From Watersipora subatra (lineage: Eukaryota; Bryozoa; Gymnolaemata; Cheilostomatida; Watersiporidae), in NCBI RefSeq assembly GCF_963576615.1, contig NC_088711.1, forward strand, positions 36,134,121-36,198,120: a stretch of DNA of 64,000 bases, in the 5' to 3' direction. Shown in pieces: positions 9,423 to 60,974 of this stretch. Made by a program: the position numbers and the translations under genes. The notes beneath the pieces were generated by a model, which saw only the letters and a program-made list of their open reading frames with translations, was not told the DNA's origin and did not search any database. Numbering within the stretch: the first letter of the stretch is position 1; every line of letters starts with the position of its first letter.

Positions 9423-9491
9423 CATAGAATGGATAAAACGCTAGCATACTTAGAAGAATAGCCCAACAGAAAGATTAGTAAAAGCATCAAT

Positions 9492-28080: not shown

Positions 28081-28645
28081 AAGAGCCGTTAAAACGGTTA
28101 TTTAATTGTATTGATAACTTAATGATCTGGGTGTTTTTCTAGCTGTATGTTTAGAACATTAATATCTTGCATAAATAAAAGATTTTAAATACTATTAGAA
28201 ATTTCAAAGCTAGCTCTAAACTAATATGAAGACATTTAAGCTCCCAAAGTGATCAGCTATTTACGGTAAGATACACTAAATGGTATTCCTGAAGTTTTGG
28301 AATGAAAACTCGATATCTTTATTTTCATTTTTTGTCTTTATTTTACGTTCGATACCATTCCATATTCTGAAACCAGTTTAGTCCTATATCATTCTTCATT
28401 ATATTAAGCAAACTTGTGATTGAAGCATATCGTTAGGTCTAGATGGAAATTAGTAAATTCTAAAGCTTAGGTTTTGTTCGTATTTGAATATCAAGATTAC
28501 CATTATTCTTACCTTGGTTGCAGTTTCTCATATCAAAAGCAAATTTCCTTTCCTTGTTTTTTCTATGGTCATAATTTTATGGGTGATTAGTTTTTGAAAT
28601 GTTCACTTGTCAAACGAATCTGCAATAGCTTAAAAGTTTGCTTAA

Positions 28646-29545
28646 AGGTTGACTTGCAACAAAATTCACATTACAGGTATTTTGTATCAAAAAGGTTCAC
28701 CATGTCTTACTCTGTGGTGGTGTTGTAGGTGCAAAATTTGTGAAAATCTGATTACTAGCTCCTAAAAGCTCATAAACAAACAGTTAATTGCAGCCATCAC
28801 AAAAACGCCGTAGTTTGGAATTTCTTTATTTGGCTGATGTACTCCAACAGTTTGGAGTTCATGTTATCACGTGAAATTAAAGGCCAATAAAAAGCTCGAT
28901 ATAAAACGTCTCGTAGCACTAGTTTATGACAAATACTTCGGGTTCTATCGGAATGCCCGTATCAAATATAAATGCTCGCTACATTACAGTGTCGTTTCAG
29001 CCCGGTCTAATCATCTAGTCGTAATCTGATCATGTGAGCCATGCTTTCTGCCAAATCGCGCAAACAGTTTCTGCAGCATTTTTCGACTATCGCAGGTGAC
29101 CAACAGGCTCCTCATGTTCATCAAAGGATGATATGCACTTCTTCGAGCTAAGGTTAAAAAATTAAATGAATTTTTATGCTAGGTTTGGAGATATCAGTGC
29201 TCAAATGATAGCTTTACAATTATGATGAAATAGACACATAAGGACAATAGACATGGTTTTATTGAATGCGTAAAGTATATTTGTGCAAGTATTTCGACGA
29301 ATAAGGTTGCGTGAAAGTGTAAACAGAAGCCATCTTGTTCAACTACGTCCCATTTGAGCCGTTTTGGAAATGGACTCCAATCTGCAGCGTTTCCGTAATG
29401 GCTACGATCAACTGTTCGTTTTTGAGCTTTTAAGAGCTTGTAATCACATTTCCACATATTTTGCTCCTACATCACAGCAGAGTACGACATGGTGAATCTT
29501 TTGATATCAAAAACCTGTAATGTGAATTTTGTTGCAAGTCAACCT
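28646..29545 (+). mobile_element. TTAA foldback MITE, family T1, copy 1 (900 bp)
   Basis: It starts AGGTTGACTTGCAACAAAAT and ends with the inverted partner, flanked on both sides by TTAA (28642-28645 and 29546-29549). The terminal inverted repeats run about 185 bp with mismatches. The centre (gtagcactagtttatgacaa, aatctgatcatgtga) is shared with the three other copies at 42547, 50694 and 55630. No transposase is encoded. TTAA target duplication is the hallmark of piggyBac-mobilised elements, though the termini differ from classic piggyBac ends. Confidence 0.88.
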
Positions 29546-29549
29546 TTAA

Positions 29550-31186: not shown

Positions 31187-34100
31187 ATGACTACTGCACA
31201 TCCGCCTAAAGCTAAAACTGTATGGCAACATTTGTTGAAGGTAAGTTCACTCTATGACTAACTTGTTGGTTAGTTCACTCTATGACTAACATGTCGGTTA
31301 GTTCACTCTATGGCTAACATGTTGGTTAGTTCACTCTATGACTAATATGTTGATTAGTTCACTCTATGGCTAATATGTTGGTTAGTTCACTCTATGACTA
31401 ATATGTTGGTTAGTTCACTCTATGACTAATATGTTGGTTAGTTCACTCTATGGCTAATATGTTGGTTAGTTCACTCTATGGCTAATATGTTGGTTAGTTC
31501 ACTCTATGACTAATATGTTGGTTAGTTCACTCTATGACTAATATGTTGGTTATTTCATTCCATGACTAGCACGTTTCAGGATATTTCTGCTGTTATCAAT
31601 TTCGTTTTGTGTCACCCCATACGCTACAGTTGAATGACTATGCAGGTGCCTAGTAAGGAGGTGATGGTAAGGCTATGCGATCAGGCAATTCTATACAAAG
31701 GACTCGCATCACATAATCTTCCTGATTCAATTGTGGCCAACTGGAGCTCTACTCTGTCTGTCACCAAGGGAGAGACACGACAGGCAGGTTTATTTGCTAG
31801 CATTCTGTCAACCTTCCATACAATATATATCTTTGTTGCTTCGCTGACAACGAATCTGAAAGAAATGTTAATGACTGCAGTTCAGCAGAGTCTGCTATTG
31901 ATTGATACATTTTTTATATTTTTTCTAAAACATATTCTATTTACTCTTGTCATGCTAACAGATGGTAGAGCGGTGGGGCCAGCACTTTCTACAGCTTGTA
32001 CGCATGTGGCATCCAAATATAGCACAGAGAAAGCAGCTTATTGTGCCATATCCTTCCACTGAGATAGCGGCTCTCTGTAGAACCCATAAAAGTACCCTCG
32101 AAACAGTAGAAGTATTTTTGAAACCATATAAGTACCCTTGTATAAGTACATGTGCACTCTTATCATTTCTTACTTATTCAGTTGTAAAAGTTGACCTTCT
32201 GGTAGAGTGGGTCAGGATATCTATTTAATAGTTACCAAATATTGTTTATTTTATTATCCTCAGTGCTTCTAAAAAAATATACTTTAATTAGTTCTGTAAA
32301 ATAAATATTTTTTTTACTACAAAGTCCTTACAGTGAAGCAATTTTGCTATTAAACAGATGTGACCCTATAGTCTATAACTAGCCATAGTGGAATGGCATT
32401 TATAGACACCAAACAGACTCGGCAGCTAAGATTGCTCCTAAACATACAAGTATGTTGTCTTTTTGAGAATTTGGTTTTAATTGCTTGCTTTTGTCCAAAA
32501 GCATACCGGTTATAAGTCCTACCCTTTTTTCACTTACATGTACATGTAGTCAACAGTTTGGCAATGCTGAATATTTCATAAGAATCGCTGCCTGCTGTGC
32601 CTCGACTGTTCACTCGCAGTAATGGATACCTTTCAAATAATCTCCTCAGTTTGAAATTATCTCTCCTGCTTGTATAATATGTTCATCAATCATCTCTTTG
32701 TCTTTCGCTAAAGTCATGTGAAGCAAATATATAAGCTAAGCCTCCTACCTGTTCCCCTTCACGACCTCATCTACGGTATGTTCTTAAAGAAAACAAATTT
32801 TGTCGAAAGTTTTTCTGCATTGTAAGGTTATTCTTTTTGTAATTCTATTTTGTCAATACGGTGACTGCGTAGCGTAACAAACCAGCTTTTACAAATGAGA
32901 AACTCTTTGTCCATGGTTTTGTTTGCAGGTCATAACGAGTCTCTCTTCTCTTCTCCAACGAGGAGTCTTTTTGTTCTCAGCCAACCCCTCTGCAGTTTCT
33001 AATGCATTTCCAGGTAATTTCATGTTAATAAATATGCAGTCTGGTTGGTTCTTAAAAAATCCTAAAAAAGTAAAACTTTTTTTAAGATTTATTATTATTT
33101 TCACTTTTTTATGTGTTAATTCTTTATCAATATAAGTAAAGAATTAGTAAAATATCTTTAGCTGTGCCATATCATTCACTAGTTTATGAAAATCACCCTG
33201 AAGATAAGACGTAATGACCTCGTGATTACCTCTAGCCACCCTCAAACTTTATTAAAGTCCTGAGTCTTGCACGGCTATGTCAGTGCTGCTCCTGTATTTT
33301 ACTTTTATCAATTTACACATAAATTCTTATAATTTCACTTTGTAATCTTCTATTTAATATACAATGTTTTGAAGTTTTATGTAGGAAAATAAAGAAATCA
33401 CATACGGTAGCTTTAGTAAAAGAGACATGACGAGGCATAGACAGCAGTTACACATGCATTCTGTCTCTGGATTTGTGTTGTCTGTTTTTGTTTTCTGCTT
33501 CCTCCTACATTGTCGAGATGAAAGCGGTCAAAGGCTATTAAATACTATTAAATATAAAATCACAGAATATTATCCAGTAATATTAATTTGAAGTTCATGT
33601 AGTTTTTGTTACACTAGTGTCATATCTCTATCATTACCTCTATGTACTGTTTGTCTTTGGGTTATCAAGGCTACTTTTCAGGTCACCTGACTTTAATGCA
33701 AGGCATTGCGGCCTGTGGCAACAGTGGCATTGTGGCAACAGGCATAAATACCTGTTTTTATTATCATTGTATTTATTTGGTTTGTTACTCTTACCGGTAA
33801 TTTTGTTTTGTATATATATAGCATTTTACATAGTTTTATATAATATCACTCTCAATGTTTGTCTGTCATTCGTTTGTTGGGCGTCTGTCCAGTTATAGCG
33901 ATAAAGTGTCGTTACCAAAAATTCACTTCGCATAGGATTTGAACTTGTAACCTTCAGGTCTGCAGACACGCAAGCCAACCCATCACACTGCGCACACTGA
34001 TTCATAGCAGTGTACATATTCATTACATCGGTTAAAACATAGTCTCCGTATAGCGACTTGTTTGCTCAGTAATTTCATTGTTTTTCTTATTGTATGTTGG

Positions 34101-37100
34101 CAGATGATTTTCACGCAGACCTTAGAGAGCTATTGTCTTCCATAATAGCTAAAAGGTTTTCAGAATGGAAAGTAACGCTTGCAGACTCTAACAGTAAGTG
34201 ATCTTGTTAAATGGGTTTATCTCTATACACATCATGTTCGTTATGGCACTGCTTTCTTGTCTACCTCTATCTCCCAGTTTCGTTCCCTATTATCTTTTCC
34301 ACTTTACTGGGTCTTAATTCCCTTCTACTAATAATCCTTTGTAGCTTTCAGTTTTTCTTATTCAGCCTCTCAATTTTCAGCAACATTAGTACTTAGGCAG
34401 TCGGGTCAGCCGTGAGATTCCAAAATGTGGCAAAGTGGTTGAGTGACTCGGATGGTATCGAGCCTGACTGCTATGCTGCATGTGTGAGTTCGATTCCTGT
34501 GCCATACAATCTTTTTCCTAACCTTCAAGCATGGCGACGGACGCCACTCTCATTATAGTAAAGATGCTTTTCTCTTCTCACTTTCAAATCTCTGTTAAAC
34601 CCTTCATTTTTCCTTCCTCGTCTCCTACCAAAAACTGTTTTACCGTCTCAATCAACTCTGATACCTTTTACTATCTCGCTATAATTTCTTTTTCTCTCTA
34701 GTTTCTATTATTCTAATCGTATTGCACTTTTGAGTGTTTGCTTCTCTGTATCCTGCTCCTCTTTTTTCTCTTAAACCTCTCTTTCTACTTTAAGACTAAC
34801 ACTATTGTGTGAACTGTGTCTGAACTAGCAGTCTGTTGGCCTGTTATCCAGGGATTACGTGTTTGTCACAATTTCCATTTCCATAATTCATTTCCATATT
34901 ATTTCCATTTCCATAATTCATTTCCATAACATTTCCATAATTCATTTCCATATTATTTCCATAACATTTCCATAATTTATTTCCATATTATTTCCATTTC
35001 CATAATTCATTTCCATAGTTTTTTCCATTTCCATAACATTTCCATAATTTATTTCCATATTATTTCCGTTTCCATAACATTTCCATAATTTATTTCCATT
35101 TCCATAATATTTCCATAATTCATTTCCATATTATTTCCATTTCCATTTCCATATTTTTTCCATTTCCATAACATTTCCATAATTCATTTCCATAATTAAT
35201 TCCATATTATTTCCATTTCCATATTTCTAAAATAAAATTTCCATATCCATTTCCATAAAATTATGGAAATATTTATGTTTATGGAAATGGATATGGAAAA
35301 GTAAACATTTCCATAATATGTTTAGCGATCCCTGGTGTGTACGCATGTGTGCGCGCTTGCGTGTCAAATGAGCGTGTGTGTGCAATCGTCAACTCTTCCC
35401 GAACATGTGATTAATTTATACATAATATGAATATGATACTTGCTTGCTAATATACTTTATTCAGGGTCCAGGCAACATCAAAGCTGTATGCTACCATTGC
35501 CTATAACTAAGCCAGAGACGATTTGAGATAGTTTCTTTCAGACTCCCTTAATAGTTTCTGTAATACCACGGATGTTAGCTGGGTTTGTGTATTACCATTG
35601 TCTATACATGTAGCCGAGCAAGAAACAATTTGAGTTAGTTTCTTCCAGACCCCTTTAATAGTTTCTGTAATACCACTAATGTTAGCTGTTTGTGTATTAC
35701 CATTGTCTATTCATGTAGCCTAGTCTATACAATATAACTCCCCTCTGTTTACATCTTGGATTACGTGTATGTTACAATTTCCATAATTCATTTCTATATT
35801 ATTTCCATTTCCATAAAATTTCCATAATTCATTTCTATAATTTCCATATTATTTCCATTTCCATACCCTTTCCATAATTTATTTCCATTTCCATAATATG
35901 TCCATAATTTATTTCCATTTCCATAACATTTCCATAATTCATTTCTATAGTTTTTTCCATTTCCATAACGTTTCCATAATTTATTTTCATATTATTTCCA
36001 TTTCCATAATATTTCCATAATTCATTTCCATATTATTTCCATAATTCATTTCCATATTTTTTCCATTTCCATAACATTTCCATAATTCATTTCCATATTA
36101 TTTCCATTTCCATAACATTTCCATATTTCTAAAATAAAATTTCCATATCCATTTCCATAAAATTATGGAAATATTTATGTTTATGGAAATGGAAAAGTAA
36201 ACATTTCCATAATATGTTTAGCGATCCCTGCTGTTATCTTACCATCAGTTCAACGGTTGTAGGAACCCTTCCAATGCTGATCGATGTTCAGTGCAAGGTG
36301 AACAGCACTTCAGACAGCGCTACACTCGATGCTTTGCTACCCACTAAGGCTAGCTGTGTTCTGCAGTTAAAGGTATACTATACAAAATGTAATTGTCATA
36401 TTAGTGCATATACTATCAATACGGCAGATCGTTGCAAGTGGTGCAGGTGCTCTAACATTGTTAGTGGGTGATGTTCTATTTACTGCGTTAAAGAATGTTA
36501 TTACCCTAGGACACTTATATTTCGCTAGTACATGTATTTAGTTTCGTGAGTAGCATACAGAGTAAAACTTCGCAGCAACTTAATTTCGCAGCTCTGATGA
36601 GTGCGAAAATATAGTGATGTGAAAATAAATGCAGTGGAACAAACATAATTAGATTCCTCAGGTTCAGTTCACCGATAAAAAAAATTCAATTTGCGACTAG
36701 TTTGTAATTGTGAACCGCAGGTAGAATGGTGTGGCCTAGGTCGATAATGCAATTTGATCGCTTGCTGCCATTTGTTTTTTGGACTATCAACCGGCCCGTA
36801 TTCCCTGGGGCGGCTGGCCGGCTGACTTTTTGGGAATTTTTCACGGCTAAGTACAGTCAAACTCGGATAACTCGTCCTCGGATAAAATGTAACATTTCAT
36901 CTCAAACAAAAGGTTAACTCGAACGGATTTGTTTGGTCAGTTCCAATGCAATGATAAATTGCTTCAGATAACTCGACCTCAAAATCATTTATTCGAAAAG
37001 TTATTTGCCCAACGGCCATGGACACGGTTTTTATCGCTGTAGAATATCACTTCATTCCAAGCCATAGAGACAAACATCAACTTATAGTAGTTCTTAGGCG

Positions 37101-38426
37101 TCATTATTATCATCATCAGCGGCAAAATATTCTTGTTAACGACTTTTATAAAGGTTTACAAAAGATCAAGTTTTACCAAACACCCGCTTGGCCATGTCCC
37201 ATCAAAAGCGTAAAACCTCCGAATGAACTTGAAATAAAATCCGCAAAATTGATCTTGGTTAAAACGTTCAAAAGAAAAAGATGTCTTTTTTCTGAGTGTT
37301 TTAACTGCGGTCAAATTTTGCCTATTTTAATTTAAAAACGTCTAGTCATTCACATCACCTAAAACAAAACAAATCTCAAAAAATAGAAAAATGTTGATAC
37401 TTTCCGATAAAATTTTTTAAAACTTCACAGGAGAGGCCCGGCTGAGGCCCTACATGAGATAAACTTGTTGGGGGCTTACACCGCCCCCCTCCACACCCTA
37501 GGTGTTCATAACTAGTCGCCTAACATTAGCCACCCCAACTTGCAACCAGTGAATACAGGCCTGAGTCTATCAATGAACAAAGCTATTTAATTTTGCGTTT
37601 TCGCTCGTTCGTTATGATAGTTTAGTTTCGCACATGAAATTTTCACGAAAGGATGACTCCGCGAAAATGCGAAAGTTAGATGAGGCGAATACATAAGTGT
37701 CCTAGGGTATGCTAGTGCAGTCCAACCTCAGTTTTAGCTGCATTCCATGCTAGAATCATGTGAATTCTGTAACAAATTTTTCCATTAACATTATCTATAG
37801 CATAAGTAATTTTAATCATTTCAAAATTAAAAATAACTTTTCTAATCGTGTTTGTATTATTTTACACCATAAAATGTATATATGAGAGCTGCTAAAACTT
37901 CACAGAGAAGGGTAAACCATGAAAGCATTGTCGTAGCAGCTTGCATTCCAGCCTTGTTTTTTTATTGGTAAATTTAGTGAAGAAAAGCTTCTGTTCTATG
38001 CTAACAGCAGATAAAAACAAAATAATGCACTAGTATACCATGCCACACACAATATACAGTCAGTATTTTGTGAACCGAAATAGTTGAACACTAAAGATAA
38101 CCAGAGAGGTAAAAAGAGGATCAATGGGGGGGACATTGTGCTCTGCTTATCTTGATCTCAAAGTCCAGTGTTGGACTGCTGCAAGATGTTGAGCTCTCAC
38201 TTCTCTGATTGCAGCTAGTTTGTTGTATCAAGTTGAGTGCAAATTGACATGGATATTTCAACCGTTGCTTTGAATGCTAATCCTTTTTGTATGGCAGATC
38301 GAGGGTGTTGGTAATACCGACAAAACGGAACTCATCGATGTGGAGTTGAGCCGAGAGAAGGTGGATACTATGCTAGATGGATTGAGTAAAATCAGAGATC
38401 AATTGACTTCAGCTATGCAACGATAG
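31187..38426 (+). CDS. COMMD9: COMMD9, COMM domain protein of the Commander/CCC complex; six exons, complete
   Basis: Exons 31187-31240, 31646-31783, 32929-33013, 34104-34193, 36263-36372 and 38298-38426 (stop TAG) join in phase to 201 residues; human COMMD9 has 198. The N-terminal helical half reads MTTAHPPKAK...WQHLLK, PSKEVMVRLCDQ, LSVTKGETRQVITSLSSLLQ, NAFPDDFHADLRELLSSIIA. The COMM domain follows: LPMLIDVQCKVN, SCVLQLKIEG, VELSREKVDTMLDGLSKIRD. These match human COMMD9 block for block, including FPENFHQNL and ELSKETLDTMLDGLGRIRDQL. COMMD proteins form a ring within the Commander/CCC complex that controls endosomal recycling of membrane cargo. Intron 2 appears to use a GC donor (CAG|gcaggt). 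Intron 1 holds a 28-bp minisatellite; intron 4 holds a composite hAT-type insertion ending 24 bases before its target-site copy and exon 5; intron 5 holds a TA-flanked element. The 3' half is duplicated at 42.5-48 kb. Confidence 0.95.
31245..31560. repeat. 28-bp minisatellite, about 11 copies, in COMMD9 intron 1
   Basis: The unit is ggttagttcactctatgact plus aatatgtt, with gactaa/ggctaa variants. It begins immediately after the 5' splice site of intron 1. Confidence 0.95.
31784..31789 (+). promoter_or_regulatory. COMMD9: Non-canonical GC 5' splice site of COMMD9 intron 2
   Basis: Exon 2 must end in phase 0 at CAG (31781-31783) to join GTC ATA ACG of exon 3. The intron then starts gcaggt. The nearest GT (31787) gives the wrong phase. 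With the GC site, the joined protein aligns without gaps to human COMMD9 over this junction (36 residues each between the SVT and the Phe after FP-D/E). Confidence 0.75.
33895..34025 (-). mobile_element. Minus-strand tRNA-like SINE remnant in COMMD9 intron 3
   Basis: The reverse complement has a gtgatgggttggcttgcgtg box A-like part and ggttacaagttcaaatcc as box B. A diverged duplicate lies at about 44150-44305 as part of the segmental duplication. Confidence 0.5.
34392..34564 (+). mobile_element. tRNA-derived SINE in COMMD9 intron 4
   Basis: It has gtggcaaagtggttgagtga (box A region), gtgtgagttcgattcctg (box B with GTTCGATTCC) and the tail ctctcattatagtaaagatg. It is duplicated at 45191-45363, so it predates the segmental duplication. 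Confidence 0.75.
34866..35335. repeat. Degenerate (t)ttccataa array, unit A of the hAT composite
   Basis: It consists of tandem mixtures of atttccataattca, tatttccattatt and cataacatttcc words. The 3' end turns into an inverted repeat in which ttccataaaattatggaaat forms the hinge, followed by gtaaacatttccataatatg. Confidence 0.9.
35486..35730. repeat. About 105-bp tandem duplication inside the hAT composite spacer
   Basis: Two and a partial third copy of a unit containing accattgcctata / accattgtctata, atttgagatagtttcttt and tagtttctgtaataccac. Confidence 0.8.
35768..36220. repeat. Degenerate (t)ttccataa array, unit B of the hAT composite
   Basis: It has the same vocabulary and the same closing palindromic block as unit A. 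Its last base lies about 32 bases upstream of COMMD9 exon 5. Confidence 0.9.
36504..37707. mobile_element. TA-flanked Tc1/mariner-type non-autonomous element, 1204 bp
   Basis: Terminal inverted repeats CCCTAGGACACTTAT are flanked by TA (36502-36503 and 37708-37709). The duplicated locus at about 45904-45925 is empty and has a single TA in the matching place. Subterminal ttcgc-rich words recur in inverted form at both ends. The interior contains repeated ggataactcg words (36860-36985), a 105-codon open frame (37018-37335) with no recognised domain, and the GC-rich segment shared with 628-716. It sits in COMMD9 intron 5. Confidence 0.8.
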
Positions 38427-39860
38427 AGCTATGCAACGATAGACTTGTTGCGCTGCCTTCAGAGTGGCACTATGCAATAGTGAACTATTGACAAAGGTCA
38501 GCTCACAATTTGTTTACATCAACACACAAAGCCGGTGAAGTGGCTTCATTTGCTACAAAGAAATCGAAGTGGCAGCAATCACAGCAAGTTCATCTATAAA
38601 ATTTTCCTGATTCGCAGTACGAGCATTACTACTCACATACCTCTTGCTCAACTTTCATGGTATTGAATTATAGCAATTTCTGCCCATCAATACTTGATTT
38701 GGACAGCATGTGAAGCCAACTCCAGTCTACACCCATGAAATCTTGAGGTGACTTGCTTATATGTAACATTTCCATAAAGTGATTGCAAAGCCTGCCAATG
38801 GTACTTACATACCTGCTGCGGGTCATATTTGGAATGTTTTATTTATTAGATATGAATTCGGAATATATTCTCTCAAATATATTGTAAATTACAAAAATAT
38901 TGCTAATGTAGAAGTCCTTGTGCAATCACTGGAGCTTTTAGCGATGATGTGCTGTGGGTAGAGTACAATTTGCCAAAGTAATATGATACTGGACTCGCTA
39001 AAACTTGTGTAAAATACCCGAGCACATGTTTGGGTGAATTTGTGACATCGTTATGAATCAAGGCAACTAGTGAAATACATTCTACTAGAAATGACTTAAA
39101 TTAACCGAATGCTGGCACCGGTGAGAATAGCCCTTGATAGCATTTTCATAGGGCGTGACCAGGTATTTATAATGATCTGCCAAGTATATAAGTGAGGTCA
39201 CGGGTTCACTTTTGAAATGTTTAAAAATAATATAAAAACATAAATATATAAACTACTGACTGCTCATTGCCTAGAAGTTAAACAATGACCATAACAATCG
39301 ATACTTTCCGTACAGTCATCGCTCCTAACCACACTTCTATGAATAATCGATGTCTCCAATCAAGCTTTGTCTGGGATAATCGCCAACTGGTGCAGACGTT
39401 CTACATTTTTATCACCAGCCTTCCAACTACATGTGCTGTTTTTATCGAAAGCAAGAAGAACGCATCGTTTACCTGTTTAAAACATATCAGCTAGTAGAAT
39501 GAGTTTTTGTAATGTATTCAATCGGTTGATAGATATGGGCAGAAGTTCAATAATATACAACAACACTGATATACGCTAACAAGATGTATTGTAATATCAG
39601 CTTTTTCGCTACTACGCTGACACACTGCGACATGTGTTCCATTTGTTATTATAGTAAATTTGTTTTGTTGGATAAACGCATATGCTTGATACTTCTGAAC
39701 TAAAAATCTCCCAGCTGTAAGTCTCACTCGAATATAAGCTTCAATTACACAAGTTATCAGCATTGTATACTCAATAAAAAACACTATAGTATCAGCCACA
39801 CTCACTTCTCATGCAAAAGCTCTTATGCTCTCCAAATATTTCTCTTCATCTAGTGATCAC
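38427..39860. other. COMMD9 3' flank, part of the duplicated block
   Basis: It is closely matched at 46626-48060. No additional gene was recognised. Confidence 0.5.
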
Positions 39861-39864
39861 CTTC

Positions 39865-40143
39865 TTAGGGAATCAAAGTAGCAAGTTGGATCTCCTTCGT
39901 CTGCACATTTGCTGCCTCTTTGATCACAATCTGGGCAACAAAATATGACAATTTGTTAAGGCAGTCATCATTATCACTCGAGCCCAGATTAGAAATCTGA
40001 TGAACATCAAACTGTTTTCTAGATCTCTCATAAACAATAAACTTGGTAGCATTATTATCAGCTAATATTTTAAGCTGCTCTACACCAACACAGATAATTG
40101 ATTGCCAAAACAGTTTTAACCTTAAGTTCTTAATTAACTTCAT
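39865..40143 (-). CDS. Possible small gene, unrecognised
   Basis: A 92-codon ATG-started frame on the minus strand with balanced composition (segments IICVGVEQLKILADNN, FIVYERSRKQFDVH, YFVAQIVIKEAANVQ) in otherwise AT-rich DNA. No family was recognised and no splice partner found. The codon mix looks more protein-like than neighbouring chance frames, but AT-rich DNA produces frames of this size by chance. It lies in the unique DNA between the two duplicated blocks. Confidence 0.25.
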   Translation of the reverse strand: MKLIKNLRLKLFWQSIICVGVEQLKILADNNATKFIVYERSRKQFDVHQISNLGSSDNDDCLNKLSYFVAQIVIKEAANVQTKEIQLATLIP

Positions 40144-40534
40144 AGCATTTTAGCAAGCGGCAATCTCAATCATTAAATTGTTCATAAATTAACACTGTTA
40201 CCTGCGATATGCTGTCTAGACAAAATGCAGTATTTTTCACCTTTAAATAGGGTGTTTTAGCAAAGCTCACTTCAGGTTTTTATTACCTCACTCGTGTTTG
40301 TAACTATGCACAACATATTTTGTATTTGTTTCTGCTATGACTGCGTTCTACCTGCTGCTGTTCACTTACTTTTTTATTAGTGTGTAAAATAGCTTTCATC
40401 GTGACTTATGATTGTTATAGCCACTGTTATTATGTATTTTATAGTTTTTTATAATATTTTCAAAACCCTTTTTGAAAAGCGTTACACTAGGGGTTTTTAG
40501 GCAATTTGTCCACCTCTAGCATTGTACTAGTGCA

Positions 40535-40925
40535 GGATTTTCAATTTTCTATTTTAGCAATGAACTTTGCTTGTGGCACTCTTGAGAAATATCCCTTACT
40601 AAGATCAGCCTTGGCCATCAATTCTTTGTTCAAGGCTGAATTTCTTAATCTTTGATCCCTTGACATCCATTGTGTTTGTTGCAAACTGATACAGGACTTA
40701 TCTACCTCTCCAAAATCAGCACTTGGGCTGAGTGGCTCGGCTTTGGCCAAATAGTCCATGTTCATTTCCTTCCTTGCATGTTGCTTCTCTAAAAGTTTGA
40801 AAATATCATCAAACCCTCTCTGCCCTATAGCTTTTAGAAGAGTGTATTTTCACTCTCGAAGGAAGTCGTCCTTTGAGCTGAAGCTCCTGTATTTCTGCAG
40901 CAATTGTCAATTAAGGGGAGAACCT
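40535..40925 (-). pseudogene. Coding remnant of an unidentified gene
   Basis: The minus-strand frame ending near 40541 reads, upstream of its first ATG, through AIGQRGFDDIFKLLEKQHAR, then MNMDYLAKAEPLSPSADFGE, SLQQTQWMSRDQRLRNSALN and KADLSKGYFSRVPQAKFIAK. Further upstream the same frame has YRSFSSKDDFLRE followed by a stop. The charged, helix-like composition is protein-like, and the internal stop suggests a decayed exon, retrocopy or transposon gene. No family is recognised. Confidence 0.35.
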
Positions 40926-40929
40926 GTTC

Positions 40930-42490
40930 CATCTCTTACTATGAGGCATATCTTCACCATTGCACAGTTTAGGAGAATTTCCAAATGCGAAGCACTTAAG
41001 TTTATATCGAGGTCATCTTGAGGTCAAATAGTTAGCAAGTTGCTGCTGATAGTGGTACTCCAACACTTTCACTCTTTACTTCAACAGAAATATGCAAGGA
41101 AAGTGCTTGTTCTTTTATTTCTACACTCAATCTTCATATTCCACCAACCACGGGTTGCTTCTCTAATTGTTCACTCAGTATTGATATCAATACTGTGTAA
41201 TGTCTTCAGCATAGGTAAGTTCAGGATGGCTCAGATCTCTTACCTTATCAGTTCGATTGGCAAGTGAAAGCTATCAGACCATCATTGTTCAGAAATCATG
41301 TGATTCAACCAAACCATGCTGCAGTCAGATTTATCTCAACATGGGTAGATAACTCCAGTTCTTACAACTTGTTTTTTATTGTTCTGTGTGATGCTAGTAT
41401 ATCCACAGTTGTCCATGTCCATAATGCTCCACAGTTAGACTAGAGTGTGCTGATAATTTTATGCGGTGGATTTTGCATGTGCCCTCTTTATGTTATATGA
41501 ATGGCAGAGCAAAGAGTGAGAAGGAGAAAGGGAGATTCATTTTACCTTACATAATTGTCTATCCTATCGAGTTCATTAATATTTTGTCTGGTATATTTTT
41601 ATTAACATGGCTAGTAAGCATCTGTGCATTTAGTATAGCTTTCATATGACCAATGTTGGAATTAGATTCGTTTGAAATAATGTATGCATGCATATCTGTA
41701 AGGTACACAGATGATGAATTGGGCTCAGAAGTGTGTTACATTCTTTATTGTAATTATTACAATCTTGTTACACAGGTTCCTTATCTACATCTTTGGGTGT
41801 CTTTATATCCTAACATTTTTATCATTGGCTGACAATCTATGCGGTTAAGTCTAGTCGAGTCATTTGTTTTTGTCTATTTAAGCTGTACCTGTTTTTAAAA
41901 TGGACTGCTGTAGATGTTCTTGTCTGAATGTGAAGTTCAGCCTATTACACACTTGATAAGAATAAGGAATTACATGTAAGTAGGCAGATACCTTGTGCAC
42001 ACTAACAGACTCTCCTGTTAGCGCACAGCATGGTTGCATGACCTTCATACATGTACACCACCAGAATATGTCACATAAAATTGATCAGGCCCGCAGCAAC
42101 GATGCATGTTTCCTGTTTTTTTGGTCGCTACATAAAAGGCTCTGCTGGTTGAACAGGCAGCGGGGTTAGCTGTTTTTTATACAGTGTGAATTCACTGTAC
42201 TGCATCGCTTCCCAACACCAAGTTAGATTTGTTGCTTGCTCACTATCTGTTGGATTTGTGTTGATAAGCAAGAGTTGCCTAGTCTTGCAGTTGGTTCATT
42301 GTTAGCACCCAAATTTCAGCATCCAGAGTCCAAATTTATAAAAAAAAAATTTTTTACCAATCCTTAAAACCTCCAAAGTCATCTAGTAGTTATAGCTAGA
42401 AAGAAATGACAGATGATGTAATGAAAAACAGCTTGAAATAAGTGCAAGTGAAGAGGCTGACCGTAAATAATAGAATAATGGAAGCTAAAA
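40930..42490. other. Unique spacer between the duplicated blocks
   Basis: No supported gene or RNA. A short agagtgagaaggagaaaggg purine-rich stretch is near 41511. Confidence 0.4.
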
Positions 42491-42546
42491 TTTAACAACT
42501 ATTAAATATAAAAACCAAAAATATCATTAAGTAATGTTAATTTTAA

Positions 42547-43422
42547 GGTTGACTTGCAACAAAATTCACATTACAGTTATTTGGTATCAAAAGATTCACC
42601 ATGTCTTACTCTATTGTGTTGTAGGTGCCAAATGTGTGGAAAAGTGATTACAAGCTCTTAAAAGCTCAAAAACGAAAAGCCGCCGTAGATTGGAATCTCT
42701 TTATTTCTCTGACGTAGTCATGAAATTTATTTATTGTCTTGTCACGGATGTTCTCACATGAATTGAAAGGCCAATACAAAGTTCAATATAAAACTTATCG
42801 TAGCACTAGTTTATGACAAACACTTCGAGTTTTACCGTAGACCCCCATATCAAATATAAATGCTCGCTACTTTAAAGTTTTGTTTCGACTTGGTCTAATC
42901 GTCAAGTCGTAATCTGATCATGTGACTCAATACTTCGCAAATCATTTTTGCAGCACTTTTCGATTATCACAAGTGACCAACAGGATTGTCATGATTATCA
43001 GACAATGATATGTACTCCTTCGAGGTAAGGCTAAAAAATTAAATGATCTTTTACGGTAAGTTATAAGATATCACTGCTAAAAGTGACAGCATTACAATGA
43101 CGATAAAACAGACGCGTAAGAACAATAGACATAGTTTTGTTGAATGCGTGAAGTATATTTGTGAAAATATTTCGACGAATAAGGTTACACGAAAGTGTAA
43201 ACAGAAACCATCTCTCACAACTACGTCACATTTGAGCCGTTTTGGAAAGAGAATCCAAACTACGGCGGTCTCGTGTGGCTGCGATTAACTGTTCGTTTTT
43301 GAGCTTTAAAGAGTTTGTAATCTCATTTCCACATATTTGGCACTTACCACACAACAGAGTAAGACATGGTGAATCTTTTGATACCAAATAACTGTAATGT
43401 GAATTTTGTTGCAAGTCAACCT
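42547..43422 (+). mobile_element. TTAA foldback MITE, family T1, copy 2 (876 bp)
   Basis: It starts GGTTGACTTGCAACAAAATT after TTAA (42543-42546) and ends AAGTCAACCT before TTAA (43423-43426). The interior matches copies 1 and 4 in the same orientation. The corresponding position in duplication copy 1 (about 33585-33592) has no insertion, so this copy arrived after the duplication. Confidence 0.88.
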
Positions 43423-43439
43423 TTAATGTTCATGTAGTT

Positions 43440-43577
43440 CATGTTACACTGCTGTCATATCTCTATCATTACCTCTATGTACTGTCTGTCTCTCGAGTCA
43501 CCAAGGCTACATATGTTACACTGCTGTCATATCTCTATCATTACCTCTATGTACTGTCTGTCTCTCGGGTCACCAAG
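43440..43577. repeat. 69-bp tandem duplication private to copy 2
   Basis: The unit starting atgttacactgctgtcatat and ending caccaaggctac occurs twice, whereas copy 1 (33605-33680) has it once. Confidence 0.9.
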
Positions 43578-43701
43578 GCTACTTTTCAGTTCACCGACTT
43601 TAATGTGAGGCATTGTGGCGATAAATACCTGTTTTAGTATCACTGTATTTGGTTTATTACTTTTAATTTAGTTTTGTATATATAGCATTTTAAATAGTTT
43701 T

Positions 43702-44103
43702 ATCTCTATATATTTCTCAGAGTTGGTGTGTTCGTATGTGTGTCTCTCTGGCTATAGCTATTAAAATCTTGGAATAAAGAATCCTTACCAAAGAAGGTTT
43801 GATCGCAGACCCTCCCATTCGCCAGTCCAACGCCGTACCAATAAGGCCACAGAGATTTATTTGTTCGCTAGCCGATATAATGTATGTCGCTATATGAGAG
43901 CATATACCCAACGGCTTTGCGTATTATGCAGGGTGATTGCATAACGTCATGGAGGCGAATAGCTCTCATTAGTAAAGTTCCTCAAATTTTCCATTGGCAA
44001 TGTGCCAGGCTAATAGTAAGTGGCAAGCAACTTTCATTACTTCTCATTGTTTATAAGCTGATTTTTAATACCCGGGCAATGTCGGAAAGCACAGCTAGTA
44101 TAA
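43702..44103. mobile_element. SINE-like insertion private to copy 2
   Basis: The reverse complement of 43800-43860 shows a tRNA-like head (gtggccttattggtacggcg and a ggtctgcgatcaaacc box B). The far end carries cccgggcaatgtcggaaagc and acagctagtata, a SINE-tail style. Copy 1 joins the flanking sequences directly at about 33845. Confidence 0.6.
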
Positions 44104-44902
44104 TATAAATCTCAGTGTTTGTCTGTCATTTGTCTGTCCAGTTACAGCTACAATTAAAGTTTTCAAGTACAAAAAATCTGCTTTGCATAGGATTTGAACA
44201 TGTAACCTGCAGGTCTGCAGACAGGCAAGCCAACCCATCACACTATGGGTCCAACTGCCCATAGTGATTAATAATAGTGCACATATTCATTACATCGGTT
44301 AAAATACTCGTGCTTGAAGCGCTTGAGAAAATACGATTGGTTATTAACTAGCACACTTGATCATTATGTGTAACGCAACGGTTTTTTAGCTGGCTTCTAT
44401 CACAGCTTTTACTACAGTAAAGGTTTAGACTAGCTTAAGTTACTAGCTTACCAGTTAAGTTGCTCAAATTCATTAAGTAATTATTTTATTGCTCATGCAC
44501 CACTAGGCATTCACTGGTAGTTTGATATAATGCGTTCGTATTAATGCTGAATGTTGAATATTCAATTTTTATCATTTGTGTATTAAATGAAGCACAATGT
44601 ATTTTCATTAGAGTATTTAGTCCATCATATGATAATTTTGGCATCTGATTCAAACCTTGGAACAGATTAGCTTGGTAGGTCAGTCTGGCTGTATAGTTGA
44701 ATGTTTTAGATTTAGGACTTATCATCTCTTGTTTATTCTCAACTCGTATAAGGGAGACCTTCTAAAAATTCTAATTTTTTTCAAGTTCCAGTTTTTTACC
44801 AGTTGCATGTCACGTATGCTGTTTTTACTATTAGTAATATTCTTCTTATAGTGGCCTGTTTGCTCAATAATTTCAAAGTTTTTTTATATCGTATGTTGGC
44901 AG

Positions 44903-46625
44903 ATGATTTTCACGCAGACCTTAAAGAGCTATTGTCTTCCATAATAGCTAAAAGGTTTTCAGATTGGAAAGTAACGCTTGCAAACTCTAACAGTAAGTGA
45001 TTCTGTCGAATGGGTTTATCTCTATACACATCCTGTTCGTTATGGCACTGCTTTCTTGTCTACCTCTATCTCCCAGTTTCGTTCCCGATTACCTTTTCCA
45101 CTTTACTGGGTCTTAATTCCCTTCTACTAATAATCCTTCGTAACTTTCAGTTTTTCTTATTCAGCCTCTCAATTTTCAGCAACATTAGTACTTAGGCAGC
45201 CTGGTCCGCCTTGAGATTCCAAAATGTGGCAGAGTGGTTGAGTGACTTGGATGGTATCGAGACAGACTGCTATGCTGCATGTGTGAGTTTGATTCCTGTG
45301 CCATACAATCTTTTTCCTAACCTTCAAGCATGGCGACGGACGTCACTCTTATTATAGTAAAGATGCTTTTCTCTTCTCACTTTCAAATCTCTGTTAAACC
45401 CTTCATTTTTCCTTCCTTGTCTCCTACCAAAAACTGTTTTACCGTCTCAATTAACTCTCATACCTTTTTCTATCTCGCTATAATTTCTTTTTCTCTCTAG
45501 TTTCTATTATTCTAATCGTATTGCACTTTTGAACATTTGCTTTTCTGTATCCTGATCCTCTTTTCTCTCTTAAACCTCTCTTTCTACTTGGAGAGTAACA
45601 CTATTGTGTGAACTATGTCTGAACTAGCCGTCTGCTGGCCTGTTATCTTACCATCAGTTCAACGGTTGTAGGAACCCTTCCAATGCTGATCGATGTTCAG
45701 TGCAAGGTGAACAGCACTTCAGACAGCGCTACACTCGATGCTTTACTACCCAATAAGCCTAGCTGCGTTCTGCAGTTAAAGGTATGTTATACAAAATGTA
45801 ATAATTGTCATATTAGTGCATATACTATCAATACGGCAGATCGTTGCAAGTGGTGCAGGTGCTCTAACATTGTTAGTGGGTGATGTACTATTTACTGTTT
45901 TAAACAATGTTAATATGCTAGTGCAGTCCAACCTCAGTTTTTAGCAACATTCTATGCTAGAATCATGTGAATTCTGTAACAAATTTTTCCATTAACATTA
46001 TCTATAGCATAAGTAATTTTATCTGTTTCAAGATTACAAAACAACTTTTGTAAGCGTGTTTGTATTATTTCACACCATATAATGTATATACGAGAGCTTG
46101 TAAAACTTAACATAGAAGGGTAAACTGTGAAAGTATTGTCGTAGCAGCTTGCATCCCAACCTTGTTTTTTTATTAGTAAATTTAGTGAAGAAAAGCTTCC
46201 GTTGTATGCTAACAGCAAATAAAAACAAAATAATGCACTAGTATACCATGCCACACACCATATACAGTCAGTATTTTGTGAACCAAAATGGTTGAACGCT
46301 AAAGATAACCAGAGAGGTAGAAAGAGGATCAGTAGCGGAGACATTGTGCTCTGCTTATCTTGATCTCAAAGTCTAGGGTTGGACTGTAACTGCAAGATGT
46401 TGAGCTCGCACTTCTCTTATTGCAGCTAGTTTGTTGTATCGAGTTGAGTGTGAATAGACATGGATATTTGAATGCTAAATCTTTCTTGTATGGCAGATCG
46501 AGGGTGTCGGTAATACCAACAAAACGGAACTCGTCGACGTGGAGTTGAGCCGAGAGAAGGTGGATACTATGCTAGATGGATTGAGTAAAATCAGAGATCA
46601 ATTGACTTCAGCTATGCAACGATAG
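44903..46625 (+). pseudogene. Partial COMMD9 duplicate: exons 4, 5 and 6 only
   Basis: Exon equivalents 44903-44992, 45672-45781 and 46497-46625 keep the same lengths (90, 110, 129), phases, splice sites and stop codon as COMMD9. By eye there are 11 base differences in 329 bases. Seven change the amino acid (R to K, E to D and D to N in exon 4; T to N and A to P in exon 5; D to N and I to V in exon 6) and four are silent. Exons 1-3 are absent, so no complete COMMD9 can be made from this copy alone. The reading frames are intact, so it is a young partial duplicate, a possible source of a chimeric transcript, or a second haplotype misplaced in the assembly. Confidence 0.88.
45191..45363 (+). 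mobile_element. SINE, duplicate of the copy at 34392-34564
   Basis: The same box A, box B (gattcctg after gagttt) and attatagtaaagatg tail, with a few substitutions. In this copy box B has gtttgattcc in place of gttcgattcc. Confidence 0.75.
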
Positions 46626-46795
46626 AGCTATGGTGCTGCCTTCAGAGTGGCACTATGCAATATTCAACTATAATTAACCAAGGTCAGCTCACAATTTTTT
46701 TACATCAACACACAAAGCTGGTGAAGTAGCTTCCTTTGCTACAAAGAAACTTAAAGCAGCACAACCTACGAAGATGCTGTGGTTGAACAAACCTA

Positions 46796-46843
46796 CATGC
46801 TGCGGTTGCTGCCGTAGCAGCCTACGGCAGCAACCGCAGCATG
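46796..46843. repeat. Perfect palindrome, 22-bp arms with 4-base loop
   Basis: The left arm catgctgcggttgctgccgtag (46796-46817 in part) is exactly mirrored at 46822-46843 around cagc. The GC-rich hairpin stands out from AT-rich surroundings. Copy 1 has only a single imperfect relative of the right arm (about 38562-38580), so the palindrome arose after duplication. Confidence 0.92.
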
Positions 46844-48060
46844 CTCATCTATAAAATTTACCTGATTCGCAATACGAGCATCACTACTTACATACCTCTT
46901 GCTCAACTTTCATGGTATTGAATTATAGCAATTTCTGCCCATCAATACTTGATTTGGACAGCATGTGAAGCCAACTCCAGTCTACACCCATGAAATCTTG
47001 AGGTGACTTGCTTATATATAACATTTCCATAAAGTGATTGCAAAGCCTGCCAATGGTACTTACGTATCTGCTGCGGGTCATATTTGGAATGTTTTATTTA
47101 TTAGATATGAATTCGGAATATATTCTCTCAAATATATTGTTAATTACAAAAATATTGCTAAAGTAGAACTCCTTGTACAATCACTGGAGCTTGTAGCAAT
47201 GATTTGCTGTGGGTAGAGTACAACTTGCCAAAGTAATATGATATTGGACTCACTAAAACTTGTGTAAAATACCCGAGCATCTGTTTGGGTGAATTTGTGA
47301 CATCGTTATGAATCAAGGCAACTAGTGAAATACATTTCACTAGAAATGACTACAATTAACCGTATTCGAATACAGTTAATTGCTAAATTCTACAATAGAG
47401 AATACCGGTGAGAATAGCCCTTGATAGCATGTTCATAGGGTGTGACCAGGTATTTATAATGATCTGCCAAGTATATAAGTGAGGTCACGGGTTCACTTTT
47501 GAAATGTTTAAAAATAATATAAAAACATAAATATACAAACTACTGACTGTTGCCTAGAAGTTAAACAATGACCATAACAATCGATCCTTTCAGTACAGTC
47601 ATCGCTCCTCACCACACTTCTATGAATAATCGATGTCTCCAATCAAGCTGTGTCTTGGATAATCGCCAACTGGTGCAGACGTTCTACATTTCTATCACCA
47701 GCTTTCCAACGACTTTTCTTGACGAAATCAAACCGAACGCTTCGTTTACCTGTTCAAAACATATTAGTTAGTAGAATAAGTTATTCTGATGTATTCAATT
47801 GATTGATAGATATGGGCAGAAGTTCAATAATATACAACAACACTGATATACGCTAAAATATGTATTAGTACTATCAGCTTTCTCACTACCACCCTGACAC
47901 TGTGACATGTTGTGCATCAGTGTTTCATTTGTATTATAGTCAATTTGTTTTGTTGAATCAACGCATATGCCTGTTACTTCTGAGCTGAGAATCTCCCAGC
48001 TGCAAGTTTCACTCAAATATAAACTTAAATTATACAAGTTATCAACATTTCATACTGTTA

Positions 48061-50349
48061 ACTGGAAATACAAAACGAGGTTCATCAACGATATGACAAA
48101 GATGAAGGGGTAAGTTTTGAGAGAAGCTAAAGAAACTGCTATACCATCTCCAGCAATACACTGAAGTCGTTACTCTAATAATGAATAGCAGACAGAGATG
48201 TATAAAAATCAGTGGTAATTTTGATACTTCAGGGTACTCAAAGATTTGAAGCGCGTCTCCTTCACAGTGATTTGGGCTAATTTGTATTTCACATGGCTTA
48301 AAAAAGTAGGGATTATTTAAATTTAATTTGGAAAACAAATAGAATTATTAACATGTAAGTTTTACATTATTAAGTGACTTGTTCACATGTAATAAATGAA
48401 TACAATTTGGGAAAAAAATAGAATTATTTGCATGTAGGTTTTATATTATTAAGTCATTCAAGTGGCGTGTTCTCATATTTGTGGTAATGGATAATTTATC
48501 AGTTATATACCGAAAGTAAATGTTAGACCAGCTGTTTGGCCTTATTATGGTTCAGCGGCATATTGAATACCATGCTCTGTCAATCGTATCCTCAGATAGT
48601 AGATGAGGAAATTCAATTACAAACTCAACAATGCTAGGGAGACTAAGACAATGTTGTCACAAAGTTTCACTAATACTGCCATTTTTATATGATGGGAGTT
48701 TTTGTTATTTATAGCTACACTAGAAATTTCACTGTCATACAGCCCACGACCAAAGAGATATTGGAAAAAAAAAGGGTACTGACGATTGAGAAATGCAATA
48801 TTAGCAGTCAAATGGCACTGCAGTGCAATAGGATAACTGCAATGATAGCTGTAATGTACTGGGTGTGGGTGTTATTATATACAACAAATAGCAATAATGA
48901 AAGGAAAAGATTATATGTTTATATCTCTCCCCCTACAATAGGAGAAATGCAATACTGGCCAATATTAGAAGTAAAATGCACTGATATTATTAGAAAAACC
49001 AATATTATTAATATAGTAATAATATAAAACCAATACACAATTTTGTTTACATTTAAAAACGTCATAGTTTTTATAATCTCATAAGTATAATCTCATAATC
49101 TTAAAATCTCATAAGAATCGTTAGAAAAAAATATCATTGCCATTTCCTTTACTTACACTGCGTTGTACATCAGTTAGAATGCCGAAGTACTCAAGAGTCT
49201 AAAATGTCAGGTACTTTGAAATCGGCAAAAATAAAACGATTTCAGTACTCTTACGTTAATTACAGAAACCTTCGACAATGCTATAGACTGGTGAAATATG
49301 CACGTTATTTTTTCGTGAAATGCGCACGACTTTATCGTTCTATTCTCTGTCGCTCGGCGTTTCAATTTCCAGTCTTAACTTTTATTAAACCAAGCTTTTC
49401 AAGCGTTTTGTGGCGATTTTCGTCCAAATTAATCTGTCTATTTGTGTATATTCCGATCAGATGGGTTAGTTTTAGGAATTTGCGGTAACCTTTCAAAGGC
49501 TTGGTAACATATTTAAATAGGTTTATATGCGTTTTGTATCATTTTTATACTTAAACGACTTTACTGAAAAATACTTAAATTTGTTGATAGAATTTCGTTG
49601 CAAGGGTTTGGTGACGTCCGTTAACGGATAATTTTTCGGGAGTTGTGTGCACATGTGCATTTATCATAAATCTCCCAATCAATCGCTTCGCTCTTGTTTG
49701 GTCGTGGGATAATTTAATAATAATAGTTGAAATCGTCTTTAAAATATACATGTAGCTTCATCTTGTAAAATAGCCCACGAATTATTGTAACACCATTTTA
49801 CAATTGATTAATGAAGAGGAAACTGGTGTTGACCTAACTTATATTGTTGAACATCTGTTTCACTTTCATAGATGTTCTTGTAAACAATTTCTCTAATATT
49901 TCTAAATTATTAATTGGGATCTTAATAGTGATCTAATTATCTTAAGCTAAAACCTAAAACTTATTTTGCTATTTCTCCTTTCATTAACTCTCCCTTCACT
50001 TTCATTAAATCTCCCTACTCTTTGATTAAACACCACTCCACTGTCATTTCCCTCCCTTTTATTCACATTTTAAGCCTACTGAGTTAGTTTGTGTGAGCAT
50101 TACCCTTGTCAAGGCTAATTTCAATAACTCAATGAGCAATGTGGAATTTTTCTTGCCTTTAGAAGCTGCTATATAGACCATTTGTTTGTGAAGGACATGA
50201 CTGAAATCCGCGAAGGAACATGATCACACATGTGTAAAAAACATGTAAAAAAAATGAAGGCATGTTATTTTTAAATCTTATAACTAGAGCCATCAGCTCA
50301 AAAATGAGCTCGTATTGTGTATACAAGCCCTAGACGTGGCGGCTCTTAA
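48061..50349. other. Intergenic region without a supported gene
   Basis: AT-rich DNA after the duplicated block. Short frames at 48689-49027 and 49204-49488 have no recognisable domains. 49960-50065 is a pyrimidine-rich stretch. Confidence 0.4.
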
Positions 50350-50689: not shown

Positions 50690-50693
50690 TTAG

Positions 50694-51601
50694 AGGTTGA
50701 TTGCAACAAAATTCCCATTACAGTTATTTCGTATCAAAAGGTTTGAACACCATGTTTTAATCTGCTGTGTTGTAGGTGCAAAATATGTGGAAGTGTGATT
50801 ACAAGCTCTTAAAAGCTCAAAAACGAACAGTTAATCACGAAAACGCCGTAGGTTGGAATCCCACTCCAAAACCGCTCAAATGGGACGCAGTTGAAAACGA
50901 TGTGCTTCTGTTTTTTTTCATGCAACCTCAATCGTTGAAATATTTTCACAAATAGGCTATACTTTACGCATTCAATAAAACCATGTCTATTGTAATTACG
51001 CGTTTATTTCATCATCATTGTACTGCTATCACTTTGAGCACTGATATCTCAAAACCTAGCCTATAAATTAGTTAATTTTTTAACCTTAGCTCGAAGGAGT
51101 GCATATAATCCTCTGATAAACTTGAGGAGTCTGTTGGTCACCTGTGATAGTCGGAAAATGCTGCAGAAATTGTTCACGCCATTTGGCAGGAAGTATGGGT
51201 TACATGATCGGATTACGACTAGATGATTAGACCAAGCCGAAACAAAACTGTAAAGTAGTGAGCATCTATATTTGATAGGGACTTTCCGGTAGAACCCAAA
51301 GTGTTTGTCATAAACTAGTGTTTCGAGACGTTTTATATTGAGCCTTTGATTGGCCTTTCGATTCACGTGACAACATCACGTGTCAAAATAATAATCCCGT
51401 CGAGTTGAGTACGTCATCAAAATGGAGGGATTCCAACCTTCAGCGTTTTCGTGATGACTGTGATTAACTGTTAGTTTTTGAGCTTCTAAGAGCTTGTAAT
51501 CACATTTCCACATATATTGCACCTACAACACAGCAAAGTAAGACATGGTGAATCTTTTGATACCAAATAACTGTAATGTGAATTTTGTTGCAAGTTAACC
51601 T
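50694..51601 (-). mobile_element. TTAA foldback MITE, family T1, copy 3 (908 bp), next to the QORL2 stop
   Basis: Inner sequence is inverted relative to copies 1, 2 and 4. It begins AGGTTGATTGCAACAAAATT directly after the tetranucleotide that ends the T2 element and finishes 24 bases from the QORL2-like stop codon (51626-51628). It therefore forms most of that gene's downstream flank. It is more diverged than copies 2 and 4. Confidence 0.85.
51003..51008 (-). terminator. Candidate poly(A) signal for the QORL2-like gene, inside a MITE
   Basis: AATAAA on the minus strand about 620 bases past the stop codon lies within T1 copy 3. Position and motif are the only support. Confidence 0.25.
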
Positions 51602-51625
51602 TTGAATTTTGAAAGCTCCGTTCGC

Positions 51626-59692: not shown

Positions 59693-60730
59693 TTTGCCAA
59701 GCGAATGCAGCTTGATCCTCCTCTAATTCAGAGAAAGGCTACAGCTTCAATCGCTAAAAAGAATTGTTCCTTGACATCAGCCGCAATTTCAACTCGTACA
59801 GACTTAATGTAACGTGATTTTATTATACCACCCCCTCTCTGTATTCTTTCGATCAATTCTACGCACAGTACAGTTTAAACCTGAGTGGAAGAGTGGAAGT
59901 GGATGCATCGGTCGACTTCCATTATAGGTCCATTATACCATTATTATGGGTAGCCAATACGGGGCCAATACGAATTGTTGTAATTTTGGCCTCTGAAATA
60001 TCAAACTCCTTAGAAGCAAATGCTCTAACAGATGTAACCAACGAAAAGCCTAGAATGTGCCCTATTCAGTCATATACCTTTCCCTAGAAAATTACTCACC
60101 AGAATGTATACATGAGTGCACAATTCCCCTCATATTATGTTATACAATAAACAGGTTACAAGGTATAATGTACATGGTACATGATACCATTTTATCATGT
60201 ATGCAACTAATGTGTTATTGTATATGTAAATATGTACATAAAAAAAAGTTCTTTATTCCAAATGTGTAGCCAGAAGGGATCTCAAAATAACAAACCTGCA
60301 TGTATAGTAGTAAATGGAAGTTTAATCAAATAACATAATATATTTTGTGATTGACTAGAAGTAGAATACTTTTTTGATGATTATTAAATATAATTGCAGT
60401 CAGAGATAAGATTGCAAAATATAATTGATTTCATAGGCTATCTCTCTGTAACATTTAGTATTAATGTTCAACTAAAGTCGCTATAACAAGTTTAGCATTT
60501 AGAAATTTTATATAAACCTTCAAGCAGAAAAGTATTGATTAAATGCAATATGAAAGAATTATGAATATTTAGAGAAAAGAGTTAAAAGTAAAACATAAAC
60601 TTAAAACGTACATGTAATATAAACACCTGAAAACCAAATGAATGTCGTGCAGATATTTTTCAATTTGAATATTGCTTATATAATTAATTTTATTGTGACA
60701 TTTTATAGAACACTAGTGCAACAAATAAAC

Positions 60731-60918: not shown

Positions 60919-60974
60919 CTGCAATATTAGACATAAAATAACCAACAATACTGTGACAGCATTTCATTTACCAA

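Follow-up and report, generated by a model that had tools for sequence, protein, structure and literature searches.

Two direct copies of the terminal exons of COMMD9 in the bryozoan Watersipora subatra: a probable partial local duplication whose nearer copy may have drifted

The COMMD9 locus and its surroundings

The window considered here is the whole stretch of 64,000 nucleotides of Watersipora subatra DNA at C4:36134121-36198120, which lies on a 67-Mb contig of a 784-Mb assembly of 239 contigs. It carries a COMMD9 gene on the + strand, the exons 4–6 of which are present twice, in direct order, behind one set of upstream exons. Exons 2–6 could be assigned, exon 1 was not located, and the coding features are as follows:

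31646..31783, + strand: exon 2 (5′ limit approximate), from its frame and a match to Pfam COMMD9_HN; once in the genome
32929..33013, + strand: exon 3, from its frame and Pfam match; once in the genome
34104..34193, + strand: exon 4, copy 1, 90 bases
36263..36372, + strand: exon 5, copy 1, 110 bases
38298..38426, + strand: exon 6 with the stop codon, copy 1, 129 bases
44903..44992, + strand: exon 4, copy 2, 90 bases
45672..45781, + strand: exon 5, copy 2, 110 bases
46497..46625, + strand: exon 6 with the stop codon, copy 2, 129 bases

Exons 4–6 thus total 90 + 110 + 129 = 329 bases in each copy. Spliced with copy 1, exons 2–6 encode 183 residues, which match the COMMD9_HN helical N-terminal domain (PF20923) at 59.1 bits against a cut-off of 27 and the COMMD9 chain of a solved structure (PDB 8esd_N) at E 1.8e-22, with the alignment extending over 180 residues. 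Exons 4–6 alone, as equal 109-residue proteins, score above the COMM domain cut-off of 22.4 bits in both copies (24.0 for copy 1 and 31.9 for copy 2); in the longer proteins the copy 1 version reaches 22.2 bits, slightly below that cut-off, and the copy 2 chimera 30.0. The exon 2 donor reads CAG/GCAGGT (slash at the exon border), and a GC-AG intron is therefore predicted at this position. Both terminal cassettes retain GT-AG sites, with acceptors, donors, frame and stop codon intact, and their splice phase is identical. An AATAAA lies at 39773 in copy 1, and the first one 3′ of copy 2 is at 48391.

When the assembly was queried with the 183-residue protein (E up to 1, 11 of 11 candidates scored), eight matches were returned, namely exons 2 and 3 once each and exons 4, 5 and 6 twice each, with no match outside this locus. 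The 3′ flank at 38571-39771 occurs in two genomic places, both at the COMMD9 locus (2 of 2 candidates scored), and the upstream stretch 31569-33620 is single in the genome apart from one 84-base match elsewhere. Exons 2–3 have no significant tblastn match within 38427-48500. In the assembly, part of the source gene is accordingly present twice, in direct order, as in partial gene duplicates. Across 164 kb around the copies, we found 13 pairs of low-copy repeats measuring 200 bases or more; the five with more than 80% identity all stem from the duplication, and the remaining eight show 67–76% identity, with two of these also coming from the duplicated block. A search for the COMM-domain family found three other places and missed the COMMD9 locus itself; as it overlooks this split gene, its result has no bearing on copy number.

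Three other arrangements were considered and rejected: a duplication that includes exons 2–3, by the DNA search and tblastn; a dispersed family, by the presence of the 3′ flank in just two genomic places; and a retrocopy, by the retention of introns 4 and 5 in both copies.

Two exons of a DUF155 (RMND1-like) gene lie at 16061-17974 on the − strand; the two matches of this gene in the assembly are two different exons, and the gene is therefore single. A 193-residue frame at 9462-10043 has a weak CD20-like match (26.1 bits, barely below the cut-off of 27.9), and a frame at 51626-51964 (− strand), the downstream neighbor of copy 2, has a weak match to a zinc-binding dehydrogenase (24.9 bits, cut-off 27). 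A long frame at 24296-25573 resembles a LINE-type reverse transcriptase by eye; it shifts near 25.5 kb and is continued there by an overlapping frame. The end of the window, 62940-64000, is repeated at 82–85% in at least five other places in the genome and holds a 214-residue frame (63330-63974, − strand) for which a Pfam search gave no match and which may belong to a mobile element. Minisatellites are dense at 1358-2146, 3109-5138, 7324-7705 and 18161-18755; in one of them, with 67 copies of a 30-base unit, both strands retain long open frames.

Limits of the duplicated block

Aligning the two copies yields seven collinear blocks with E-values from 5e-24 to 0, which, along with the inserted and flanking sequences, delimit the duplication:

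33538..39771, + strand: duplicated block, copy 1, spanning part of intron 3, exons 4–6 and the 3′ flank
42492..48056, + strand: duplicated block, copy 2, including an inserted element
33587-33674 / 43422-43510: collinear block
33607-33905 / 43514-43764: collinear block
33839-34037 / 44099-44304: collinear block
34039-34848 / 44837-45647: collinear block
36231-36509 / 45640-45921: collinear block
37708-38563 / 45914-46749: collinear block
38571-39771 / 46826-48056: collinear block
39776..40633, + strand: 3′ flank of copy 1, also duplicated, with its partner outside the window
40634..42491, no strand: spacer between the copy 1 flank and copy 2
42542..43426, no strand: 885-base element with terminal inverted repeats and a TTAA at each end, inserted in intron 3 of copy 2
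34841..36238, no strand: insertion in intron 4 of copy 1 (with flanking repeats), an ATTTCC-type repeat of about 1.4 kb
36504..37707, no strand: insertion in intron 5 of copy 1, a 1.2-kb high-copy element

The sequence-only reading had proposed that 33590-39800 and 43427-48060 are collinear, with COMMD9 exons 4–6 intact in both. The block alignment, frames and splice sites bear out the collinearity and the intact exons, and the duplication itself is present in the assembly, but its limits have to be redrawn. The 50 bases to the left of the TTAA element (42492-42541) match 33538-33587 at 80% (E 2e-6), and the match to the right of the element begins in copy 1 at 33587, precisely where the left match ends. 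Since the two matches meet at this point, the element was inserted in copy 2, and 33538/42492 is where the shared block begins. The position 33590/43427 is thus rejected as an edge of the duplication and marks the border of the inserted element. On the right, the block ends at 39771/48056 and not at 39800/48060.

Beyond this end, the flank of copy 1 at 39776-40633 has its own partner at C4:36209075-36209973 (window coordinates 74955-75853), with 81% identity counting gaps. The partner sits 26.9 kb beyond the end of copy 2, whereas in copy 1 the two blocks are only 4 bases apart. Dispersed repeats make up parts of 48057-50345 and 58500-64000.

Insertions after the copies parted

The 885-base TTAA element of copy 2 is absent from copy 1 at about 33587, where the site reads TTGAA, one base from TTAA, a mismatch that we count against our preferred explanation. 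Its family is high-copy in the genome (as judged from the best 40 of 8349 first-look candidates), and TTAA stands at both ends in six of the ten local copies examined, the one at 42542-43426 among them. Four copies of this inverted-repeat element are clustered in 28 kb (28642-29549, 42542-43426, 50690-51603 and 55626-56512), with a mutual identity of 79–91%.

In copy 1, the insertion in intron 4 has CAGGGAT...ATCCCTG ends and is flanked by an 8-base duplication, CTGTTATC, the empty site of which is found in copy 2 at 45640-45647. Within this insertion, two ATTTCC-type stretches (34852-35338 and 35758-36234) are 86% alike and enclose a 107-base unit in two copies. The element in intron 5 has inverted ends, CCCTAGGACACTTAT, with TA at both sides, and again copy 2 retains the empty site. 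Copy 2 has extra sequence of its own at about 43765-44098 and 44305-44836. Hence, at least three elements have been inserted since the copies parted, two in copy 1 and one in copy 2.

Divergence and constraint

The exons of the two copies differ at 11 of 329 bases, with seven replacement and four silent changes and no indels; alignment and translation show that these counts, earlier made by eye, were exact. The seven replacements (copy 1/copy 2) are R/K, E/D, D/N, T/N, A/P, D/N and I/V. The aligned noncoding DNA of the four main blocks shows 189 substitutions in 2770 bases (6.8%) and 21 indels, a count that omits the two left blocks (10/50 and 9/81), the flank block 39776-40633 (76/826) and the poorly alignable 33607-34037. 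Substitutions are fewer in the exons than in this noncoding DNA (Fisher P 0.012), and the absence of exon indels has a P of 0.08 if both copies were free, which is a weak signal. The copies had been called young; with 6.8% noncoding divergence and the insertions described above, this holds only in a relative sense.

By the NG86 method, dN is 0.028 and dS 0.057, for a dN/dS of about 0.5. At a rate of 0.0718, computed from the substitution counts, the seven replacements compare with 1.8 expected at an omega of 0.1 (P = 0.003) and with 18 expected with both copies free (P = 0.002). They are thus an excess for two well-constrained copies and a shortfall for two free ones, and an omega near 0.5 fits; in this small test, such a value fits one free and one constrained copy. 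The synonymous changes agree with the noncoding rate (four against 5.2 expected), and within the exons alone an omega of 1 is not rejected (7/254 versus 4/73, Fisher P 0.27). The suggestion that constraint was relaxed on one copy is therefore supported in degree by the values of dN and dS and by a replacement count lying between both expectations.

True duplication versus assembly artefact

The sequence-only reading had left a choice between a tandem partial gene duplication and two divergent haplotypes placed side by side by the assembler. Direct order behind a single upstream exon set can arise from haplotype overlap, and false duplications, as described in the excerpted text of PMC9516828, are adjacent and may span single genes or a few exons; the adjacent direct copies of a gene part within one assembly are in this respect alike. 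The same text names gaps between the copies as a main mark of false duplications, mostly but not always present. A simple haplotype overlap accordingly predicts a spacer that matches one flank, the usual gap between the copies and modest divergence. Against this, no assembly gap lies between the copies, with not a single N in the surrounding 164000 bases, and the spacer 40634-42491 shows no counterpart at either flank and only short weak matches elsewhere in our searches. Further, exon 3 is missing to the left of copy 2, the upstream 2 kb and the neighboring DUF155 gene are single, and alleles would need 6.8% divergence and at least five one-copy stretches of at least 0.3 kb, plus a 27-kb one. 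The absent gap, unmatched spacer and copy-specific insertions set COMMD9 apart from the false heterotype duplications of PMC9516828. From the N-free 164 kb and a layout unfit for simple haplotype overlap, we infer that the assembly is correct here and favor a true duplication; the artefact is quite unlikely, and the partial tandem duplication is the better supported side of the earlier alternative. Were it an artefact after all, it would be a warning that this chromosome-scale assembly hides haplotype duplications.

Which copy may have drifted

With a duplication, the natural guess would be that copy 2, orphaned from its upstream exons, is decaying. This is not supported: copy 2 matches the solved COMMD9 at all three comparable sites and has the higher COMM score. 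Placing single copy 2 residues into copy 1 changes its COMM score from 24.0 to 25.6 bits for T to N, 28.5 for A to P, 24.1 for D to N and 25.0 for I to V, and the proline thus accounts for most of the gain of copy 2. Against PDB COMMD9 8esd, exons 2–3 joined to copy 2 score 86.7 bits and joined to copy 1 83.2. At the three of the seven replaced sites that can be compared, 8esd has K, P and V like copy 2 and not the R, A and I of copy 1; the other four sites are uninformative against this distant protein. On the opposite side, K/R and I/V are easy exchanges, and the proline column is placed differently in the phmmer alignment of copy 1, such that the P match depends on the profile and on the alignment made with copy 2. 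The helical domain scores 59.1 bits with copy 1 and 58.8 with copy 2, and copy 2 residues are here neutral to slightly worse. Taken together, the evidence leans modestly toward the near cassette (copy 1, beside exons 1–3) having drifted and the far cassette having been conserved.

The exon 5 donors also differ, being AAG/GTATAC in copy 1 and GTATGT in copy 2. The usual donor base at +5 is G, and by general donor rules that of copy 1 is the weaker one. Conservation of the far cassette would make sense if it is perhaps still spliced. However, a near cassette is usually spliced first, and this, along with the canonical AATAAA at 39773 in copy 1, counts against the use of copy 2.

These points equally bear on a reading in which the duplication is real, copy 2 is a dead fragment lacking a promoter, and COMMD9 is made from copy 1 alone. 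Exons 2–3 are located only upstream of copy 1, with no significant tblastn match within 38427-48500; the near cassette is complete and followed by its AATAAA; and a dN/dS of 0.5 is the value for one free and one constrained copy. Yet copy 2 still has its acceptors and donors, its frame and its stop codon, and lies nearer than copy 1 to both the COMM profile and the solved COMMD9. We regard the dead fragment as possible, although it would not be our first choice.

Our preferred reading, which we hold to be slightly more likely than not, is a real local duplication with copy 1 relaxed and copy 2 probably still read by skipping copy 1. A local duplication at the DNA level would have copied the 3′ end of COMMD9, comprising part of intron 3, exons 4–6 and the 3′ flank, after which the copies would have accumulated about 7% noncoding divergence and separate transposon insertions. 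With one upstream exon set and two complete terminal cassettes of the same splice phase, splicing to either would be possible. One cassette appears to be under relaxed constraint, and the few sites that can be polarized point to the near one. Copy 2 would then probably be read, and copy 1 skipped, in at least part of the transcripts. A bolder version, which we consider doubtful, is that COMMD9 gives rise to two proteins that share the helical domain but carry different COMM domains from alternative terminal cassettes, the far one ancestral and the near one drifting or remodeled.

Origin of the two copies

The simplest order of events would be a tandem duplication followed by the loss of 27 kb from copy 1. 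Alternatively, copy 1 might be a mosaic formed by template switching, in which a single event copied the COMMD9 end and a segment from 27 kb downstream into intron 3, with copy 2 being the original gene end. The 4-base spacing in copy 1 of two blocks (38571-39771 and 39776-40633) with partners 26.9 kb apart is in line with this, as are the derived residues of copy 1. In a sample of the 26.9 kb, 52400-55600, only a short repeat recurs among the best 40 of 196 candidates, the 39 other matches all falling in one stretch of about 350 bases. This argues against a later insertion of the 27 kb into copy 2 as a duplicate, and we read this DNA as probably native and missing from copy 1 instead. However, an identical layout would result if about 33 kb had been duplicated in tandem and a deletion had followed, and the divergence of the flank block from its partner (76/826 substitutions and 22 indels) exceeds what a single event predicts: compared with the main blocks (189/2770 and 21), it is more diverged in both substitutions (P 0.027) and indels (P 6e-5). 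The excess of indels could reflect an older event or gene conversion in the main block. Overall, we hold template switching to be an improbable but serious candidate. It is compatible with either the use or the death of copy 2; the likelihoods we attach to these two readings and to the artefact compete with each other, whereas that of template switching concerns the origin and overlaps the others.

Comparison with known systems

The partial local duplication of a conserved gene is a known and frequent kind of event according to the available text of PMC3449122. COMMD9 resembles the partial gene duplicates described there in having an incomplete copy of one gene beside its source; it differs in that source and copy have common upstream exons and the duplicated part is a terminal cassette. 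It is thus chiefly an ordinary example of a conserved gene gaining a second terminal cassette. In the titles and abstract openings of ten of the twelve papers that mention both COMMD9 and duplication, no duplication of COMMD9 is described; expanded retriever systems in parabasalids are the topic of PMC11267458. A literature search on the combination of alternative last exons and tandem duplication gave no match.

Two described systems also have repeated exons. In Drosophila pip, as summarized in PMC9013439, eight repeated terminal exon clusters follow common upstream exons and are mutually exclusive. COMMD9 is alike in its repeated terminal clusters behind common upstream exons, but has two clusters of three exons each instead of eight, which are candidates for alternative use. 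In the oyster, per the abstracted account of PMC5589949, alternative splicing of a duplicated exon lets a single alternative oxidase gene yield two mRNAs; in that case the splicing has been observed, whereas the COMMD9 cassettes are read from the genome.

Finally, COMMD9 of the Commander complex (PDB 8esd and 8f2r; PMC10187114 in its excerpted text) has the helical N-terminal and COMM domains that are also present here, while differing from the gene of Watersipora subatra in that the latter has two candidate C-terminal halves. If both cassettes are spliced, a single gene would supply alternative COMM domains in one Commander subunit, and the locus would illustrate how the duplicate of a 3′ gene end can take the place of the original.
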